This document shows positions 10,263 through 19,130 of a stretch of DNA of 64,000 bases, one piece after another. Location: positions 62,001-126,000 of the forward strand of contig CALKXJ010000010.1 in the NCBI GenBank assembly GCA_938003835.1, read 5' to 3'. The DNA comes from an uncultured Bryobacteraceae bacterium. Lineage in GTDB: Bacteria; Acidobacteriota; Terriglobia; Bryobacterales; Bryobacteraceae. The notes below the pieces were generated by a model. The model saw only the letters and a program-made list of their open reading frames with translations. It did not search any database and was not told the DNA's origin. Position 1 is the stretch's first letter, and each line of letters starts with the position of its first letter. The position numbers and the translations under genes are program-made.

Positions 10263-10982
10263 CTAAATTGGGGATTGAGTATACTGTCCCTGATTTTTTG
10301 CCAGGGTTGCGAGATCCAGGCGGCCGGTGTAAAGCGCCATGCCGAGTGCGGCATGGATACCCAGACGGTCGAGTTCGCGGATCTCCTCGAGCGTGGTGAT
10401 GCCGCCGGCGGCCGTCAGCTCGCGATCGGTCAGCGCGCGCAGGCGGCGGAACCAGTCCAGGTCTGTGCCCTGCATCATTCCCTCTTTGTCGACATAGGTG
10501 CACAGGAAACCCGAGCAGTAGGGCTCGAGCTCGGAGATGAGCTGTTCAGCCAGCAGATTCGTCGATTCGCGCCAGCCTTTGATGACGATCCGGCCCGCCC
10601 TGGAATCGAGCGCCAACAGGATGCGCTCGCGCCCGACGGCGCGGTTGAGCATCTCGAGAAAGCCCCGATTTGGACCCTGATCCGAGAAGGCCGCCGTGCC
10701 GACGATTACTTTGTGCGCCCCCTGGTCGACGAGCCGGCGCGCCCTCTCGACGGTGCGAACACCGCCGCCCACGCGGCAGACCGCCCGCGCCGTCAAGAAC
10801 TCGACTAGCGCATCATTGGCGCCCCGGCCCATCGCAGCGTCGAGATCGATGACTTGAATCTGCGCGAAGCCGGCGAATTTGCGCAGCATCTCTTCGGGCG
10901 AATCGCCCTCGAGCGCCTTTTCCCTGCCCTGGATGAGCTGGACGACCTTGCCTTCCATCAGGTCGATGCACGGGATGATCAT
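10263..10982 (-). CDS. hisA: ProFAR isomerase HisA
   Basis: A 239-residue TIM barrel, the usual HisA length. It converts the ProFAR aminoaldose to the PRFAR ketose, the fourth step-group of histidine synthesis. The general acid/base aspartate is in PCIDLMEG (D7 region), the phosphate-binding loops are VGGGVRT and AAGGITT, and the second catalytic region is in [10 protein letters not shown]. The last gene of the his operon; its ATG overlaps the hisF stop (ATGA). The final nine residues and the stop come from a REP palindrome, so the natural C-terminus has been replaced, apparently without removing the barrel. Confidence 0.95.
10266..10290 (-). repeat. REP-like palindrome, copy 3 (inside the 3' end of hisA)
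   Basis: Reads AATTGGGGATTGAGTATAC then TGTCCC on the plus strand, the reverse orientation of copy 2. It encodes the last residues of HisA (QGQYTQSPI), with the TAG stop immediately after it at 10263-10265. Confidence 0.82.
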
Positions 10983-11743
10983 TCAGGCAGCCTCACAGGA
11001 ACGTTGTGCTTGTCGAGGAACTCCTTGAGCTGGGCGACGGTGTAACGGCCGTAGTGGAAGATCGAGGCGGCCAGCGCCGCGTCGGCCTCTCCCTCAGTGA
11101 GCACCTCGAGGAAATCCTCCGGCTTGCCGGCGCCGCCCGAGGCGATCACCGGGATCTTTGTGGCGCGCGCCACCGCGCGGGTCAGCTCACAGTCGAAGCC
11201 ACCCTGCACTCCGTCGGTGTCCATCGAGGTGAGCAGGATTTCGCCGGCGCCTAACGCTTCGCCCCGCACGGCCCACTCGATGGCGTCGATGCCCTCATCG
11301 ACCCGCCCGCCGCGCGTATAGACGGTCCAGGCGCCCGGCGCCCGCCGTTTGGCGTCGATCGCCAGCACGACGGCCTGCGAGCCGAACTCTGCCGCCAGCT
11401 CGGCGATCAGCTCCGGCCGGCGCACAGCGGCCGTGTTGACGCTCACCTTATCCGCCCCGGCCAACAGAATTTTGCGCGCATCCTCGACCGAGCGGATGCC
11501 GCCGCCCACCGTGAGCGGAATAAAAACCGCGCGGGCGGTGCGAGCCACCACATCCACCATGGTGTCGCGCTCGTCACTCGAGGCGGTGATGTCCAGAAAC
11601 ACCAGCTCGTCGGCGCCCTGCTCGTTGTAACGGCCCGCGAGCTCCACCGGGTCGCCGGCGTCGCGCAGGTTGAGGAAGTTCACACCCTTCACCACCCGCC
11701 CGCCGGTGACATCCAGACACGGGATGATCCTCCTGGTCAGCAT
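10979..11743 (-). CDS. hisF: Imidazole glycerol phosphate synthase cyclase subunit HisF
   Basis: A 254-residue TIM barrel. HisF takes ammonia from HisH and PRFAR to make imidazole glycerol phosphate and AICAR. The catalytic aspartates are in RIIPCLDV (D11) and the ITASS-neighbouring and TSMDTDG strands; LTVGGGIRS and ASGGAG are the phosphate loops. Length and ends are standard. It overlaps hisH by seven bases upstream and hisA by four downstream, consistent with tight coupling of the HisH-HisF heterodimer subunits. Confidence 0.97.
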
Positions 11744-12339
11744 CCGTCTAACTCCACAAAGTTCCTCATCACCGCCAGGCCGATCCGGCCCGACTTTTCG
11801 GGATGGAATTGCACTCCAAAGACATTATCCTGCTCGAGCAGCGACGTATATGGAACGTCGTAATGCGTGATGGCCGCGGTTGCCTCGTTGAGAGGCACGT
11901 AATAACTGTGGGCGAAGTAGACGAACGGCCGATCCGGAAGACCTTTGAGCAAGCGGCACGGGCGAAGCGGCTCGAGCGCGTTCCAGCCCATGTGCGGCAC
12001 GCGCGTGGCGGCGCTGAACCTTCGCACCGTTTCCCCGAACAGACCCAGCCCGGCAAGCTCCGGCGCCTCTTCGCTCGAGCGAAAAAGCACCTGAAGGCCC
12101 AAACAGATGCCCAGAAAGGGAACGCCGGCCCGGATGCGCTCGACGAGCACGGCACGCACACCGCTGGCGTCGAGCGCCCGCATGATCTGGCCGAAGTTTC
12201 CGACGCCGGGAAGGATCAGCTTCGAGGCGCGCCGCAGCCCGGCGGCGTCGCGCACCACTTCATACGGCGCTCCCACTTCTTCGAGCGTATTCGCCACCGA
12301 GCGAAGGTTGCCCGCGCCGTAGTCGAAGATGGCGATCAT
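11737..12339 (-). CDS. hisH: Imidazole glycerol phosphate synthase glutaminase subunit HisH
   Basis: A 200-residue class I glutamine amidotransferase. It hydrolyses glutamine and channels ammonia to HisF. The oxyanion-strand glycine motif PGVGNFG, the nucleophile in [10 protein letters not shown] and the histidine-glutamate pair in VQFHPEKSG are all present. The start at 12339 begins [11 protein letters not shown], the normal HisH N-terminus, and forms an ATGA overlap with hisB; the longer frame to 12420 is not HisH-like. Confidence 0.97.
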
Positions 12340-12935
12340 AGCAGTCCCTTGGTGGAGGGCAGCTCGTCCCGCAGCCGCCGGTCGCGCGAGCAGGCATACT
12401 TCATCGCCCGGGCGAAGCATTTGAAGATGGCTTCGATTTTGTGGTGGCTGGAACGGCCGTAGAGCACCTTGGCGTGCAAGTTCGCTCCGGCGTGCGTGAC
12501 GAAGCCACCGAAGAAGTCCTCGAGCAGCTCGGTCTCAAGGTCCCCCACCTGGCGGGCGCGGACCAGATCACGGTAGACCAGCGCGGGGCGGCCGCCCAGA
12601 TCGACGGCCACCACCGCCAGCGTCTCGTCCATGGTCTGCACGAAATAGCCGGCCCGGTTGATGCCCCGCCGATCACCGAGCGCCCTGGCGAAAAGCTGGC
12701 CCAGAACGATGCCGACATCCTCGACCGTGTGATGCTGGTCGACGTCGAGGTCACCGTGCGCTTCGAGTTCCAGGTCGAAGCCGCCGTGCCGGGCGAACAG
12801 CTCGAGCATGTGGTCGAGAAAGCGGATGCCGGTCGAGATCCGGTAACGGCCCTTGCCCTCCAGGCGGAGCCGCCCGCGGATCTGGGTCTCCCGGGTGATG
12901 CGTTCGATGGTGGCGGCCCGCATGGCGCTTTTCAC
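12336..12935 (-). CDS. hisB: Imidazoleglycerol-phosphate dehydratase HisB (monofunctional)
   Basis: A 199-residue dehydratase without the N-terminal phosphatase domain found in enteric HisB. The manganese-binding histidine clusters are [17 protein letters not shown] and DQHHTVEDV in the first half and HAGANLHAK and [11 protein letters not shown] in the second. The GTG at 12935 overlaps the hisC stop (GTGA); the ATG at 12923 ([10 protein letters not shown]) is a good alternative. A separate histidinol phosphatase gene is not in the window, so that step must be encoded elsewhere. Confidence 0.95.
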
Positions 12936-13987
12936 CAGACCTCGTCCAACGCCTCGAAGAAGCGTGCCACCTGCTCCCGCGTGCCGGCGGTCACGCGCAC
13001 GCAGCCCGGCAGCTCGTAACTGCGGTCGCGCACGAGCACCCCGCGCGCGCGCAATGCGTCGCGGATCGCCACGGCGCGCGGACCGGCGTCGAACAGCACA
13101 AAGTTGGCTTCGCTCGGCCAGTAGCGGATGCCGCGCCGCCCGAAGCCCTCGTAAAGGAGCTCGCGCGCGGCCCGCACCTCGGCGACGTAGTCGCGGATGT
13201 AAGCGGTGTCGGTGATCGCCACCTCGGCGGCCAGCGCGGCCAGCGCGTTCACGCTGTAGGGCGACTGTGCCTTGTGGAGAAAGGCGATGTTGCCAGGATG
13301 AGAAAGCAGGCAGCCTAACCGCATCGCCGCCATGCCGTACACCTTCGAGAACGTCCGGCTGATAAACAGGTTCGGAAACTCTTCAAGCAACGGGATCGCC
13401 GTGACGCCGCTGAACTCGTAATAGGCTTCGTCGACCAGTACGGCGGCACGGGGCACAGCTTCGAGAATCCGCCGGATGCCCTCCACCGGCACGCCGGTTC
13501 CCGTGGGATTGTTCGGGTTCGCAATGAACACCGCACGAGTTCCCGGCCCGAGCCCCTCGAGGAGCTCCTCGAGCGGGAAGCTCAGGTCGCCAGAGCGGTA
13601 AGGGATCTCGCGGATGGCGGCGCCGGCCACCTCCGCATAGAAGCGGTACATGGCGTAGGAGGGCTTGAGCAGCACCACCTCCTCGCCCGAGTCGACGTAG
13701 GTGTTTACAAGCACCTGGATCGCCTCGTCGGTGCCGTTGGTCAACAGGAGCCGGCTCTCCTCGACGCCGAAAAACGCCGCCAGCTTCGGCCGGACACGGT
13801 CGTATTCGGGATAGACGGCCAGCGCTTCCGCGGAAAGCCGTTCGCGCAGGAATTCCGCGACGCGGGGCGAGGCGCCCACGGTGTTCTCATTGAAATCCAG
13901 CCGCAGTTTTCCCGCCCGGCCCGAAGTGGGAGGAGAGTAGGGCGCCATCGCCAGCACAGCCTTTCGCGGCACGGGAGGCTCAGCCAT
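12932..13987 (-). CDS. hisC: Histidinol-phosphate aminotransferase HisC
   Basis: A 351-residue PLP enzyme of fold type I. It transaminates imidazole acetol phosphate to histidinol phosphate. Visible features are LDFNENTVG near the N-terminus, TNGTDEAIQ, the substrate loop ANPNNPTGT, the cofactor-binding VDEAYYEF, the Schiff-base lysine in [16 protein letters not shown] and the C-terminal ANFVLF. The start at 13987 lies eight bases inside the end of hisD. A longer upstream frame is the shadow of hisD. Confidence 0.95.
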
Positions 13988-15224
13988 CGAGACGCACCTC
14001 CACGCTGCGCGCATGCGCCTCGAGCCCTTCGGCGCGCGCCAGCGTGGTGATGGCCGGCGCCAGACGCGCCAGGGCGTTGGGCGCGAGCTCCTGCACGGAA
14101 ATGACCTTGACGAAATCGGCCGCCGAAAGTCCGCCCCGGAGCCGCGCGGCTCCCGAAGTCGGCAGCACGTGGTTGGGCCCTGCGGCGTAGTCGCCCGCCG
14201 CCTCCGGGCTGTGCGGCCCGATGAAGACCGAGCCGGCGTGGCGCACGCGCTCGAGCAGCCGCCGGTCCGGCAAGCTGAGATGCTCGGGAGCAAACCGGTT
14301 GGCAAGCTCAACAGCCTCGTCGAGCGAATCCACCAGGATAATCGCCGAATTGCGCTGGATCGCCTGGCGGGCCACAGCCGCCGTTTCGAGATCACCAATC
14401 CGGCGTTCGATCTCGCTGGCCACCGTGCGCGCCAGTTTCCGGGAGGTCGTCAACAGAATCGCCGAGGCGTCGACGTCATGCTCAGCCTGGGCCAGCATGT
14501 CGGCAGCGAGCCATGCCGGATTGCCGTCCTCCGCGATGATAAGGATTTCGGTGGGCCCGGCGATGAAGTCGATGCCTACCTCGCCGGCCAGCAGCTTCTT
14601 GGCCGCCGCGACGTAGATGTTGCCCGGACCCACGATACGGTCGGCGCGCGGCACGGTGCGCGTGCCGTAAGCGAAGGCCGCAATCGCGTGGGCTCCTCCC
14701 ATCTCAAACACCGCTGAAACCTTGAGCATGCGCGCCGTGCCGAGGATCGCATCCATCGGCCGGGGCGTGGCCACGCAAACCGTCTCGACGCCCGCCACCC
14801 GCGCCGGTATGGCCGTCATCATCAAGGTCGAAGGTAGCGGGTAGCGCCCTGCCGGGATGTATGCGGCCACGGTCTCGAGCGGGCGCACAATCTGGCTGAG
14901 CTTGAGCCCGGGCGAGGGCGCGAGGACCTTCGGCCGCGGCAACTGCAAGCGGGCATAGGCGGAGATGTTGGCCGCCGCGGTCCGCACCGCTCGCCGGAAC
15001 TCGGGCGGCAGGCGCCGGTACGCCGAATCCAGCTCGGCCTGCGGCACGCGCACCGTGGCGCGCTCCAGCCTGTCAAAGCGCCGGCAATATTCAAGCAGCG
15101 CGCGGTCACCGCGGGTGCGTACGGCTTCGAGGATCGGCCGCACGGCATTCTCCGCCTCAGCGAGCCGCTGAGCCCGGCGCCGCAGCAGCCGCTGGGCCTG
15201 CTTGCCTTCGATGATCCGGATCAT
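13980..15224 (-). CDS. hisD: Histidinol dehydrogenase HisD
   Basis: A 414-residue zinc enzyme that oxidises histidinol to histidine in two NAD-dependent steps. The family signatures GPGNIYVAAAKKLL, DFIAGPTEILI, QAEHDVDASA, NRFAPEHLSL and GPNHVLPTSG (with the zinc and catalytic histidines) are complete. Length is slightly below the common 430 residues but both ends are intact. It sits two bases after hisG and overlaps hisC. Confidence 0.97.
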   Translation of the reverse strand: MIRIIEGKQAQRLLRRRAQRLAEAENAVRPILEAVRTRGDRALLEYCRRFDRLERATVRVPQAELDSAYRRLPPEFRRAVRTAAANISAYARLQLPRPKVLAPSPGLKLSQIVRPLETVAAYIPAGRYPLPSTLMMTAIPARVAGVETVCVATPRPMDAILGTARMLKVSAVFEMGGAHAIAAFAYGTRTVPRADRIVGPGNIYVAAAKKLLAGEVGIDFIAGPTEILIIAEDGNPAWLAADMLAQAEHDVDASAILLTTSRKLARTVASEIERRIGDLETAAVARQAIQRNSAIILVDSLDEAVELANRFAPEHLSLPDRRLLERVRHAGSVFIGPHSPEAAGDYAAGPNHVLPTSGAARLRGGLSAADFVKVISVQELAPNALARLAPAITTLARAEGLEAHARSVEVRLDG

Positions 15225-15226
15225 GG

Positions 15227-16096
15227 CTACATCACGATCTTGTTCAGCGGATACTCGACGATTCCCTGCGCGCCGGCCTGCTTGAGCCGGGGAATGATCC
15301 GGCGCACGGTGGACTCATCCAGGATGGTGTTCACCGCCAGCCAGTCCGGGTCGCTCAGCGGCGAGACGGTCGGCTTCTTGAGCGCGGGCAGCGTCTCGAG
15401 CACGCGGTCGAGGTTCTTGCGCTCGACATTGAGCATCAAGCCGACCTTGCCGAGAGCGTTCATCGCCCCCTCGAGCAGCATCTTGATGTCCTCGATCTTT
15501 TGCCGCTTCCACGGATCTTGCCAGGCCTCGAGGTTCGCGATGAGTTGCGTGTTCGACTCGAGCACCGTCTCGACGATGCGAAGGTTGTTGGCGCGCAGCG
15601 ACGAGCCTGTCTCGGTCACCTCGACGATGGCATCGGCGAGCACCGGCGGCTTGACCTCGGTGGCACCCCAACTGAACTCGACCTTGGCGCTGACGCCGTG
15701 CTCGGCCAGGTAGCGCTTGGTGGTCGCCACCAGCTCGGTGGCGATGATCTTGCCCTCGAGGTCCTTCACCGACCGCACGGGCGAGGACTCGGGCACCGCC
15801 AGCACCCAGCGCACCTTGCCGAAGCTCTGCTTGGCATAGACGAGATCGGCCACCGTCACCACGTGGGCGTCGTTTTCCCGCACCCAGTCATAGCCGGTGA
15901 GTCCGGCGTCGAGCACGCCGTCCTCCACATAGCGCGCCATCTCCTGCGCGCGGATCAGCATGCACTCGATCTCGGGATCGTCAATCGAGGGGAAGTAGGA
16001 GCGGGCGCCCACCGTGATCTGGAAGCCGGCGCGGCGGAACAGCTCAATGGTGGCGTCCTGCAAGCTTCCCTTGGGAATACCGAGTTTTAGTGTCAT
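15227..16096 (-). CDS. hisG: ATP phosphoribosyltransferase HisG (long form)
   Basis: A 289-residue long-form HisG. It catalyses the first, feedback-controlled step, joining ATP and PRPP. The catalytic domains contain [20 protein letters not shown] and the PRPP-loop EVTETGSSL. The extra C-terminal part (from about residue 210) is the ACT-like domain that binds histidine, so this enzyme should not need HisZ. The ATG at 16096 overlaps the hisI stop (ATGA). Confidence 0.96.
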
Positions 16097-16473
16097 TGCG
16101 TGCCTCCGTAGACCGCGCCGGGATCGTAGGCGCGCGGCTCTGTCACTCTCCAATGGCCGCCGTCGAACGTGCGATAGAAGCAGCTCCGGTAGCCGTTGTG
16201 GCAGACGCCCGGTCCCAGCGCCTCGACTTGAACCAGCAGCGCGTCGGAGTCGCAGTCGGCCTGGATCGACTTCACCACCAGGCGATGGCCCGACGTCTCT
16301 CCCTTCACCCAGAGCTTGTTTCGCGAACGGCTGAAGAAGGTGGCATAGCCTGTCTCCACGGTTTTCTGAAACGCCTCCTGGTTCATGAAGCCCAGCATCA
16401 GAACCCTGCCGGTGGCGTGGTCCTGGATCACCGCCGGGATCAATCCCCCCAGCTTGTCGAAATCGAGTTCCAT
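16093..16473 (-). CDS. hisI: Phosphoribosyl-AMP cyclohydrolase HisI
   Basis: A 126-residue monofunctional cyclohydrolase that opens the purine ring of PR-AMP. The metal ligands are in [12 protein letters not shown] and the two cysteines in [22 protein letters not shown] and WVKGETSGH are family signatures. The ATG at 16473 has GAGGAG seven bases upstream; a TTG twelve bases earlier is less likely. First structural gene of the operon, immediately downstream of the attenuator-like hairpin. No HisE domain or gene is present here, so PR-ATP pyrophosphohydrolase must be elsewhere. Confidence 0.95.
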
Positions 16474-16492
16474 CGCACTCCTCAAAACAGAA

Positions 16493-16518
16493 GCGCCCGC
16501 CGGATTCGCGGCGGGCGC
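16493..16518 (-). terminator. Attenuator-like hairpin before hisI
   Basis: On the minus strand the RNA forms a perfect ten-pair stem GCGCCCGCCG/CGGCGGGCGC with a six-base loop, followed by UUCUGUUUUG and then the hisI ribosome-binding site. The 5' arm is also nearly complementary to CGACGGGCCGC at 16554-16564, inside the leader peptide gene just after the His codons (nine pairs, one mismatch, one bulge). The two structures exclude each other, as expected of a terminator and anti-terminator. Confidence 0.72.
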
Positions 16519-16546
16519 CGTTTTCGAATTCTTTCTGGAGAATTGC

Positions 16547-16621
16547 TCAGACAGCGGCCCGTCGCGGCAACGGATGCCGGTGGTGATGGTGCCGGTGGCG
16601 CGACACGGACCGGTTCAGCAT
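16547..16621 (-). CDS. hisL: His operon leader peptide (HisL-like)
   Basis: A 24-codon frame upstream of hisI on the same strand. Residues 8-17 read RHRHHHHRHP: six histidine codons in eight positions, and arginines between them. The TGA stop at 16549-16547 lies 28 bases before the hairpin. A ribosome held at the histidine codons would leave the anti-terminator segment (16554-16564) free, while one reaching the stop would cover it. This is the logic of his attenuation known from enteric bacteria. No Shine-Dalgarno is visible; a TATACT box ends eight bases before the ATG, so the transcript may be leaderless. The match is to the principle, not to any known HisL sequence. Confidence 0.75.
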   Translation of the reverse strand: MLNRSVSRHRHHHHRHPLPRRAAV

Positions 16622-16629
16622 GAGATTTG

Positions 16630-16638
16630 AGTATAACA
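16630..16638 (-). promoter_or_regulatory. Extended -10 promoter of the his operon
   Basis: Minus-strand TGTTATACT, an extended -10 element (TGn plus TATACT). Transcription would begin at or within a couple of bases of the leader ATG at 16621. The region upstream is the 3' end of the asparaginase-family gene, so any -35 element lies within coding sequence; none is obvious. Confidence 0.5.
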
Positions 16639-16643
16639 AACGC

Positions 16644-17735
16644 TCAGCGTTCAAGCAGCCAGGCGCAATCCTCAAGACGGCTCCCGGTGCCGTCGTTCAC
16701 CGCAAAGCGCTGGGGCCGAGGCCGGCCTTCTTTGTCGCGGCTCCGCCAGAGCGATGCCGATCCGTAAGCGCCGTCTTTGCGCAGCGCGTAGAAGGTGATG
16801 TCGAAGGCGGCCAGACGGCTGCGGTCGTTGTTGAAGTTACGCGCGATCCGCTTCAGGCATTCGAGACATGCCTCGCGCGGGTGCATGCCGGCACGCATGG
16901 CCTCGACGATGGTGTGCGCGCCCGCGACGCGGATGTTCTCCTCACCGCGCCCGGTGGCGCCGGCGGCGCCGACGTCCTGGTCGACGAACAGGCCAGCTCC
17001 GATGATCGGGGAATCGCCCACGCGGCCCGGGATCTTCCAGGCCAGACCGCTCGTCGTGGTGACGCCGGACATCTCGCCTTTGGCGTTCAGCGCCAGGCAA
17101 TTGATTGTGCCCGTGGGCGGGTTCGTCGCCACCTGCCAGGCCCAGGCCAGCGTGGCTTCGTCCACGTGAGGAAATCGCTGTCGGAGGGCCTGCGGGGACT
17201 TTTCGGGCGGAGCATCGAGCCCGTCGGTCCAGTTGTTGCGCCCGCTGGCGTCCCGGAGGGACTGCTTCCAGACCAGCCAGGCCAGGCGCGCCTTCTCGGT
17301 GAGCAGATTCTCTTCCTGGAATCCGTAAGCCTTGGCGAAGCGCAGTGCTCCTTCCCCGACCAGCATCACGTGATCGGTGCGCTCCATCACCAGCCGCGCC
17401 ACCTGCGCCGGATGGCGGATGCCACGCAGCCCGGCCACCGCACCTGCGCGCCGCGTCGGCCCGTGCATCACCGAGGCATCCAGCTCGACGATGCCTTCCT
17501 CGTTGGGCAATCCCCCGTAGCCGACCGTGGTGTCTTCCGGATCGTCCTCGTTGATGGCCACCCCGGCGACCACCGCATCGAGCGTGTCTCCGCCGGCCTG
17601 TAAGATCTCCATCGCCTTGGCGCAGGCGCGCTCGCCGTTGACGCTCGCGATGACAATGTTGCGCGGCTGCGCCGCGGCGAGCCGCACCGCTCCGGCCGCT
17701 GCCGGTCCCATCATCCATTCCCTTCGCGTCATCAT
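16644..17735 (-). CDS. Exported N4-(beta-N-acetylglucosaminyl)-L-asparaginase family protein
   Basis: A 363-residue Ntn-hydrolase. Family features are GGDTLDAVVAGV, the VGYGGLPNEEG-VELDASVMHG block, the nucleophile threonine at the processing site in PPTGTINCLAL, and GRVGDSPIIGAGLFVD followed by GRGEENIRV. These enzymes release GlcNAc-Asn linkages or beta-aspartyl residues after autocleavage. The N-terminus (MMTRREWMMGPAAAGAVRLAAAQ) contains a twin-arginine-like signal, so it is probably periplasmic. The start at 17735 follows GAGGAG; the frame upstream has no signal. It is divergent from aroA and its 3' end abuts the his promoter. Confidence 0.88.
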   Translation of the reverse strand: MMTRREWMMGPAAAGAVRLAAAQPRNIVIASVNGERACAKAMEILQAGGDTLDAVVAGVAINEDDPEDTTVGYGGLPNEEGIVELDASVMHGPTRRAGAVAGLRGIRHPAQVARLVMERTDHVMLVGEGALRFAKAYGFQEENLLTEKARLAWLVWKQSLRDASGRNNWTDGLDAPPEKSPQALRQRFPHVDEATLAWAWQVATNPPTGTINCLALNAKGEMSGVTTTSGLAWKIPGRVGDSPIIGAGLFVDQDVGAAGATGRGEENIRVAGAHTIVEAMRAGMHPREACLECLKRIARNFNNDRSRLAAFDITFYALRKDGAYGSASLWRSRDKEGRPRPQRFAVNDGTGSRLEDCAWLLER

Positions 17736-17849
17736 GGGGAACACCGTACTCCTCGTTGCTAGACTGATGTTCAGGATGCAGCGAAATCTGCGTGCAAAGC
17801 CCGTTCCTCCATTGTGCGGCGCGACGCGCGCGGCTAGCAAGGAAACCGA

Positions 17850-19130
17850 GTGATCATGGAGATCTCGCCCTCGGGACCGCTTCGCGGAGCGGTACGGCTG
17901 CCCGGCGACAAGTCCATCTCGCACCGCTATGCGATCCTGGCGGCCCTGGCCGAAGGCTCCACGCGGATCCGCAACTATTCAAGCGGGGCCGACTGCGCCT
18001 CGACGCTGGGCGCCCTGCGCGCCCTCGGAGTCCCGGTCGAGCGCGAGGCGAGCGAAGTCACGATCCGGGGGCGCGGCCCGGATGGTCTTCGCGCGCCTAA
18101 GGAAACCATTGACGCGGGCAACTCCGGCTCGACGATTCGCATGCTGAGCGGCGTGCTGGCCGCGCAACCGTTCACCAGCCGCATCAGCGGCGATGCCTCG
18201 CTTTCCCGGCGTCCCATGGACCGCATCATGCGACCTCTGGGCGAGATGGGCGCCGTCATCCGCGCGCGGGAAGGACGCTTCCCGCCGCTCGAGATCGAAG
18301 GCCGCCCGCTTCGCCCCATCAGCTACGCGCTGCCGGTGGCGAGCGCCCAGGTGAAGACCTGCGTGCTTCTGGCGGGCCTGTTCGCACCGGGCCGCACAAC
18401 GGTGATCGAGCCCGTGCCCACGCGCGATCACACCGAGATCGCCCTGCGCGAGTTCGGCGCCGACGTTGAAGTCGACGGCCGCCGCATCAGCGTCGAAGGG
18501 CCGGCCCGGCTGCGGCCGCGCGAACTCTGGGTTCCGGGAGACCTCTCCTCGGCGGCCTTCTTCCTGGTGGCGGCCACATTGATTCCGGGCAGCCTGGTGA
18601 CGCTCGAGCGCGTCGGACTGAATCCCCGGCGCGCCGCGCTGCTCGATTTTCTGGCGGGCCTGGGCGCGCGGATCCGCATCCTGGGCCTGGAACAAGCGCA
18701 CGGCGAGCCCGTCGGCGATCTCGAGGTGGAGCACGCGCCCGTGCGCGGCGGCCGCATCGAGGGCGGCCTCACCGCCGCCCTCATCGACGAGATCCCGGTG
18801 CTCGCCGTACTGGGCGCTGTTACGCGCGAAGGCCTGGAGGTCCGCGACGCGGCCGAACTGCGCGTCAAGGAAACCGACCGCATTGCCAGCGTGGCGGAGA
18901 ACCTGCGCCGCATGGGTGTGCGCATCGAAACGCGGGACGACGGTTTCTTCGTGCCGGGCAATCAGCACTTCGAGGGCGCCGAAGTGGACTCCTTCGGCGA
19001 CCATCGCATCGCCATGGCCTTCGCCGTCGCCGCGCTTGCCGCCCGCGGCCCATCCCGAATCCTGAACGCCGAAGCGGCCTCCGTCTCCTACCCCGAGTTT
19101 TTCGATACACTTCAGTCACTGCGCAGTTAG
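17850..19130 (+). CDS. aroA: 3-phosphoshikimate 1-carboxyvinyltransferase (EPSP synthase)
   Basis: A 426-residue shikimate-pathway enzyme that joins PEP and shikimate 3-phosphate. Signatures: LPGDKSISHRYAILAALAEG, the PEP-binding DAGNSGSTIRML, and the late LRVKETDRI and FGDHRIAMAF. Motifs are intact, so it should be active. The glycine-rich segment at the PEP site reads NSGST, as in the class II-like enzymes of Gram-positive bacteria rather than NAGTA. A GTG at 17850 and an ATG at 17856 are both possible starts after AAGGAAA. No other aro gene is nearby. Confidence 0.95.
   Translation: MIMEISPSGPLRGAVRLPGDKSISHRYAILAALAEGSTRIRNYSSGADCASTLGALRALGVPVEREASEVTIRGRGPDGLRAPKETIDAGNSGSTIRMLSGVLAAQPFTSRISGDASLSRRPMDRIMRPLGEMGAVIRAREGRFPPLEIEGRPLRPISYALPVASAQVKTCVLLAGLFAPGRTTVIEPVPTRDHTEIALREFGADVEVDGRRISVEGPARLRPRELWVPGDLSSAAFFLVAATLIPGSLVTLERVGLNPRRAALLDFLAGLGARIRILGLEQAHGEPVGDLEVEHAPVRGGRIEGGLTAALIDEIPVLAVLGAVTREGLEVRDAAELRVKETDRIASVAENLRRMGVRIETRDDGFFVPGNQHFEGAEVDSFGDHRIAMAFAVAALAARGPSRILNAEAASVSYPEFFDTLQSLRS

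Follow-up and report, generated by a model that had tools for sequence, protein, structure and literature searches.

A probable His-codon transcription attenuator before the his operon of a Bryobacteraceae bacterium, with counterparts in other Acidobacteriota

Introduction

Attenuation of amino-acid operons has been worked out in few phyla. In the enterobacterial his attenuator (Rfam RF00514), a leader peptide rich in His codons precedes the his operon, which begins with hisG, and the position of the ribosome on the leader determines whether an antiterminator or an intrinsic terminator is formed. In the enteric his and trp attenuators, a protector hairpin allows termination even in the absence of leader translation. 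His-rich leaders have already been reported in Proteobacteria and Firmicutes (PMC2965389, PMC9413887). Those of Firmicutes, known from few lineages only (Bacillus cereus group, Peptostreptococcaceae, Erysipelotrichales; PMC2965389, PMC9413887), combine a terminator and an antiterminator in a sequence unrelated to the enteric leader. In Sinorhizobium meliloti, an alphaproteobacterium, the 5′ end of the trpL leader RNA is the ATG of the leader peptide (PMC7298713). For Acidobacteria, almost no predicted attenuator had an assigned function (PMC2965389).

The locus described here lies on the minus strand of the window, that is the whole 64-kb stretch of DNA that was analysed. The host is a soil bacterium, and Acidobacteriota are among the most abundant soil phyla. 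As in enterobacteria, a His-codon leader precedes the his operon and the ribosome would choose between an antiterminator and an intrinsic terminator; this much stands of an earlier claim, made in a sequence-only reading of the same DNA, that the locus reproduces enteric-type attenuation. Unlike the enteric system, however, the operon starts with hisI, the final codons of the ORF contain the antiterminator segment, the leader is probably read from a leaderless mRNA and no protector hairpin was predicted; the last two points do not fit the claim. From the Firmicutes leaders, which also join a terminator to an antiterminator, it differs in phylum and sequence, and in being near-universal in two orders and spread over many families. 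The likely 5′ end of its RNA at the leader ATG recalls trpL, which serves Trp in another phylum. The sequence-only reading had rightly named Gammaproteobacteria as a home of His leaders, but the range is wider and includes Firmicutes. No description of His-leader attenuation in Acidobacteriota was found in open-access full text; an earlier prediction is possible in subscription papers (Lopatovskaya 2010, Vitreschak 2004). The mechanism is of a known type, while the phylum and the variant are new.

Results

The leader, the hairpins and the operon

The leader is followed by an operon of eight genes, hisIGDCBHFA. The features are, in the direction of transcription:

16630-16635, minus strand: -10 box TATACT, 8 nt 5′ of the leader ATG (sequence and conservation)
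16547-16621, minus strand: leader ORF, from the ATG at 16621 through 24 sense codons (MLNRSVSRHRHHHHRHPLPRRAAV) to a TGA whose last base is 16547
16574-16597, minus strand: regulatory His codons, six in eight (H R H H H H R H; sequence)
16554-16565, minus strand: antiterminator segment B (GCGACGGGCCGC; CGACGGGCCGC at 16564-16554), in the last leader codons
16509-16518, minus strand: terminator 5′ arm C (GCGCCCGCCG), common to antiterminator and terminator (sequence, folding)
16493-16502, minus strand: terminator 3′ arm D (CGGCGGGCGC; sequence, folding)
16484-16492, minus strand: U-rich tail TTCTGTTTT, interrupted (sequence)
16093-16473, minus strand: hisI, first structural gene, ATG at 16473 (NF000768, over cut-off)
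15227-16096, minus strand: hisG (TIGR00070 and TIGR03455)
13980-15224, minus strand: hisD (TIGR00069)
12932-13999, minus strand: hisC, start codon approximate (TIGR01141)
12336-12935, minus strand: hisB (NF002111)
11737-12420, minus strand: hisH, start codon approximate (TIGR01855)
10979-11743, minus strand: hisF (TIGR00735)
10263-10982, minus strand: hisA-like, last gene of the run (PF00977 and its place after hisF)

The ORF, its His codons, the hairpin and the antiterminator segment lie, exact to the base, where the sequence-only reading had put them. The 24-codon frame with six His codons in eight is there before hisI, and no other frame in the window combines four or more His within 10 codons with a nearby stop. 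The hairpin is the perfect ten-pair stem that had been described, closed by a 6-nt loop and followed by TTCTGTTTT, a U tract that is interrupted. Two features of the attenuator class are therefore present: a short ORF rich in codons for the regulated amino acid, directly 5′ of the biosynthetic operon, and an intrinsic terminator (with that interrupted U tract) between the leader and the first gene. Rfam scans of the window and of the leader assigned no family. The RF00514 covariance model (His_leader) gave no match even at E <= 10; the best leader-type match was Thr_leader (14 bits, E 3.3).

Conservation of the His leader

Of 200 genomes from the order Bryobacterales, HisI could be placed in 187, and the upstream DNA was read for 90. 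A leader was scored where three or more His fell within ten codons of a short frame that ended less than 200 nt 5′ of hisI. Such leaders precede hisI in 82 of the 90 genomes, with at least four His in 79 and at least five in 65, compared with 4%, 0.11% and 0 of dinucleotide shuffles (n = 1800). Leaders with at least four His were also found in 70 of 80 named loci from GTDB genomes, a set that overlaps with the 90. All 75 Terriglobales loci read have a His leader (the order of G254 was taken as Terriglobales from gene content and kinship). Beyond these orders, His leaders stand 5′ of hisI in other Acidobacteriota families (L100, L101, L103-L105, L107, L110, L111, L121) and before the first gene of differently ordered his operons (L132, L135, L144, L245, L246, L248, L252). 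The comparison with relatives that the sequence-only reading had proposed as its own test did not refute it: conservation of His codons and stems extends over the order and the wider phylum, and compensatory changes accompany it. The leader peptide is conserved in its His content only; spacing and flanking residues vary.

The His frame is missing in 8 of the 90 Bryobacterales (L063, L008, L038, L043, L072, L077, L079, L081), of which L008 still has a frame of nine codons, two of them His. Upstream of hisI in L063, L043 and L081 the -10 box is retained and the leader ORF is lost; L063 also retains the terminator. In the 9-13 kb upstream of hisI scanned in distant families, several (e.g. f24, f29, f32) had no leader, and universality across the phylum is therefore not claimed.

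These data bear on two other readings of the locus. The hairpin might be a mere terminator of the upstream gene (beta-aspartyl-peptidase-like, 16644-17924), which is co-oriented and stops 23 nt short of the leader ATG, the His frame being due to chance. Since only about 10 nt separate the U tract from hisI, no space would be left for a promoter, and the His frame, the -10 box and segment B are kept in relatives and in differently ordered his operons; we consider this explanation almost inconceivable. The leader could also work mainly on the translation of hisI, by coupling or reinitiation, with the hairpin secondary. The hisI start lies 73 nt past the leader stop, and in a few distant cases (L147, L149, L157) no clear terminator follows the leader, as such a role would allow; however, almost all Bryobacterales and Terriglobales have, between the stop of the leader and hisI, a GC-rich hairpin with T's behind it, which renders a mainly translational effect extremely unlikely. 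Control of transcription by attenuation is the reading followed below.

A probable leaderless start

The -10 box upstream of the leader ATG is mostly TATACT, in Bryobacterales often inside TGNTATACT N5 TTC ATG. Its spacing to the ATG is 8-10 nt in 69 of the 79 Bryobacterales leaders, and usually also in 82 leaders of other Acidobacteriota. Shine-Dalgarno-like motifs are scarce (5/79 leaders, versus 34/90 hisI starts). Taken together, the conserved box and the scarcity of these motifs suggest that the leader mRNA is probably leaderless and that transcription starts at the ATG or a few bases from it. From the same kind of signal, about 13% of the genes of three Acidobacteria have been inferred to be leaderless (PMC3160421). 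Across the host's own genome, the extended -10 plus ATG pattern had eight matches versus none in the reversed control; the his leader aside, no obvious amino-acid leader was seen among the eight.

A switch between two pairings of arm C

In most species the sequence of segment B, located 3′ of the His run, is similar to that of terminator arm D, and B can form a helix with C. The median distance from the last His codon to the start of B is 10 nt, and in 78 of 79 leaders B ends at stop+13 or earlier, inside the stretch that a ribosome on the stop codon would occupy. This includes leaders whose stop precedes B, in which B lies directly behind the stop codon. The position of B implies that a ribosome stalled near the beginning of the His run would leave it free, whereas one at the stop would cover it.

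The RNA downstream of the ribosome was folded as it would exist before D is made, and the probability that C is paired upstream was taken as the measure. In the window this probability falls from 0.91, for a ribosome placed on the first His codon, through 0.78 on the last one to 0.09 on the stop, as expected from the earlier proposal that a stall frees the segment and a ribosome at the stop masks it. The size of the switch over 78 species is 0.55, against 0.19 with shuffled intervening sequence, and it is larger than the shuffled value in 76 of the 78. In equilibrium folding the terminator prevails whichever ribosome state is modelled; the decision must therefore be kinetic, as we assume here and as in other attenuators. 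Without a ribosome, C is already paired upstream before D is made (0.91 in the window; 83% of the 78 species exceed 0.5). Because C is thus pre-empted, no protector hairpin is evident. An untranslated leader is consequently predicted to read through.

The B:C duplex of the window alone has an energy of -14.7 kcal/mol, which is not significant against shuffles (p = 0.13), and complementarity in this single sequence was dropped as proof. The pairing segment that had been proposed at 16554-16564, past the His codons, is present, and its support is therefore comparative. For Terriglobales, B was picked by its likeness to a consensus and not by pairing. In 36 distinct rows, 86.8% of cells are paired versus 84.2% after shuffling (reached in 0/500), both-side changes number 14 versus 7.8 (2/500), and with the partner slid out of register at most 58% pair. 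Over 51 distinct rows pairing is 0.791 versus 0.758 permuted (0/2000 as high), and cognate B region:C pairs exceed non-cognate ones in 15 of 16 families (0.618 versus 0.527 of perfect-duplex energy; permutation fraction 0.0002), in permutation tests that control only partly for relatedness. Family f6 is an example, in which C is GCCCTCCG and B contains CGGAGGG. The third class feature, an exclusive antiterminator whose 5′ part is freed at the His codons and masked at the stop, is thus present by position, folding and covariation, and the system belongs to the leader-peptide attenuators by every testable defining feature.

At 16557-16565 and in relatives, many Bryobacterales B segments read GCGACGGGC, which sets an A opposite a C in the B:C helix. 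This recurrent mismatch may keep the antiterminator weaker than the terminator.

Leaders of other amino-acid operons

Upstream of ilvB in the host's own genome (G000:C8:155796-157481; L317) we found TATACT N7 ATG, MERPVSRLNLASLRAGLRLSILSAVVVILIIIEVIVGGPA and then a GGCCACC/GGTGGCC hairpin with T5. In 12 of the 28 genomes read, the own genome included, ilvB has a leader in which Ile, Val and Leu make up at least 8 of 12 codons; none of the shuffles gave one. The ilvB leader is a candidate branched-chain amino-acid attenuator with the layout of the his leader. Among relatives (L325-L352), ilvB leaders recur with Ile/Val/Leu-rich codons, a -10 box adjoining the ATG and a terminator. No Trp- or Leu-rich leader was found upstream of trpE and leuA in the own genome.

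Families f47, f17 and f35 have an operon running from aroDE-hisZ-hisG through hisIE, with trpE next in L136, L138 and L142. Leaders with both Trp and His stand before aroDE-hisZ-hisG...hisIE in L136 (stop at 154), L138, L142 and L238-L244; their peptides include ...SWWAHGHGKG (six species), ...LHWHHWTHN, ...GWWGFVHHHVE and ...SRHWHVHHS. For the His-only leaders of L132, L135 and L144, no trpE was found within the roughly 2 kb read beyond hisI. Since the Trp+His leaders stand before aroDE-his-trpE operons, leader codons track operon content. We regard the Trp+His leader, from its codons and context, as a candidate attenuator with two inputs that would control shikimate, histidine and tryptophan genes together.

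This correspondence weighs on a further explanation, in which the His run is an arrest or metal-binding peptide and stalling is due to the nascent chain, as a sensor of, for example, free histidine or a metal ion, and not to scarcity of charged tRNA-His. Poly-His peptides bind metals, and the position of stalling would be identical. Yet His content alone is conserved, not spacing or flanking residues, and the leaders of other operons match their own products (Ile/Val before ilvB; Trp+His before aroDE-his-trpE), which makes a nascent-chain sensor very unlikely beside sensing of charged tRNA-His.

Discussion

The locus very probably controls the his operon by ribosome-mediated transcription attenuation, with charged tRNA-His as the signal sensed. 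The parts are conserved, B and C covary, and the modelled RNA switches with the position of the ribosome; the start of transcription, translation, stalling and response to histidine are predicted to take the following course. RNA polymerase would start at or beside the leader ATG and a ribosome would initiate on the leaderless mRNA. When charged tRNA-His is scarce, the ribosome would stall on the His run and unmask B (16565-16554), which could pair with C (16518-16509) ahead of the synthesis of D. The terminator would then be absent, and polymerase would continue into hisIGDCBHFA. With sufficient histidine, the ribosome would reach the stop codon and mask B, C:D would form and transcription would end at about 16484. 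If the leader is not translated, read-through is expected, no protector hairpin being predicted.

This analysis assigns a function, with comparative support, to an Acidobacteriota attenuator family outside Rfam His_leader. With a probable leaderless start and no protector, start-codon mutants are predicted to read through and not to terminate, which separates this system from the enteric model. We lean, if only slightly, towards a broader view, that Acidobacteriota possess leaderless two-state attenuators phylum-wide, with no protector and read-through as the default, and a dual-input Trp/His version on aroDE-his-trpE. The Trp+His leaders on merged his-trp operons provide a natural test of the attenuation model.

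Two minor observations concern distant loci. In family f19, His-rich frames (AHHGHRHHAHRCVRAPREM... at L149:4145 and FHHGHRHAHRCVRAPREM... at L157:4097) have no clear intrinsic terminator, and perhaps have a different output. In family f18 (G260), two His leaders stand in tandem at L248:3600-3970, each with its own terminator (MVIATVSRHHHHHHPILGPGTGARAV, VPFHAHHHHHVHFPPG).
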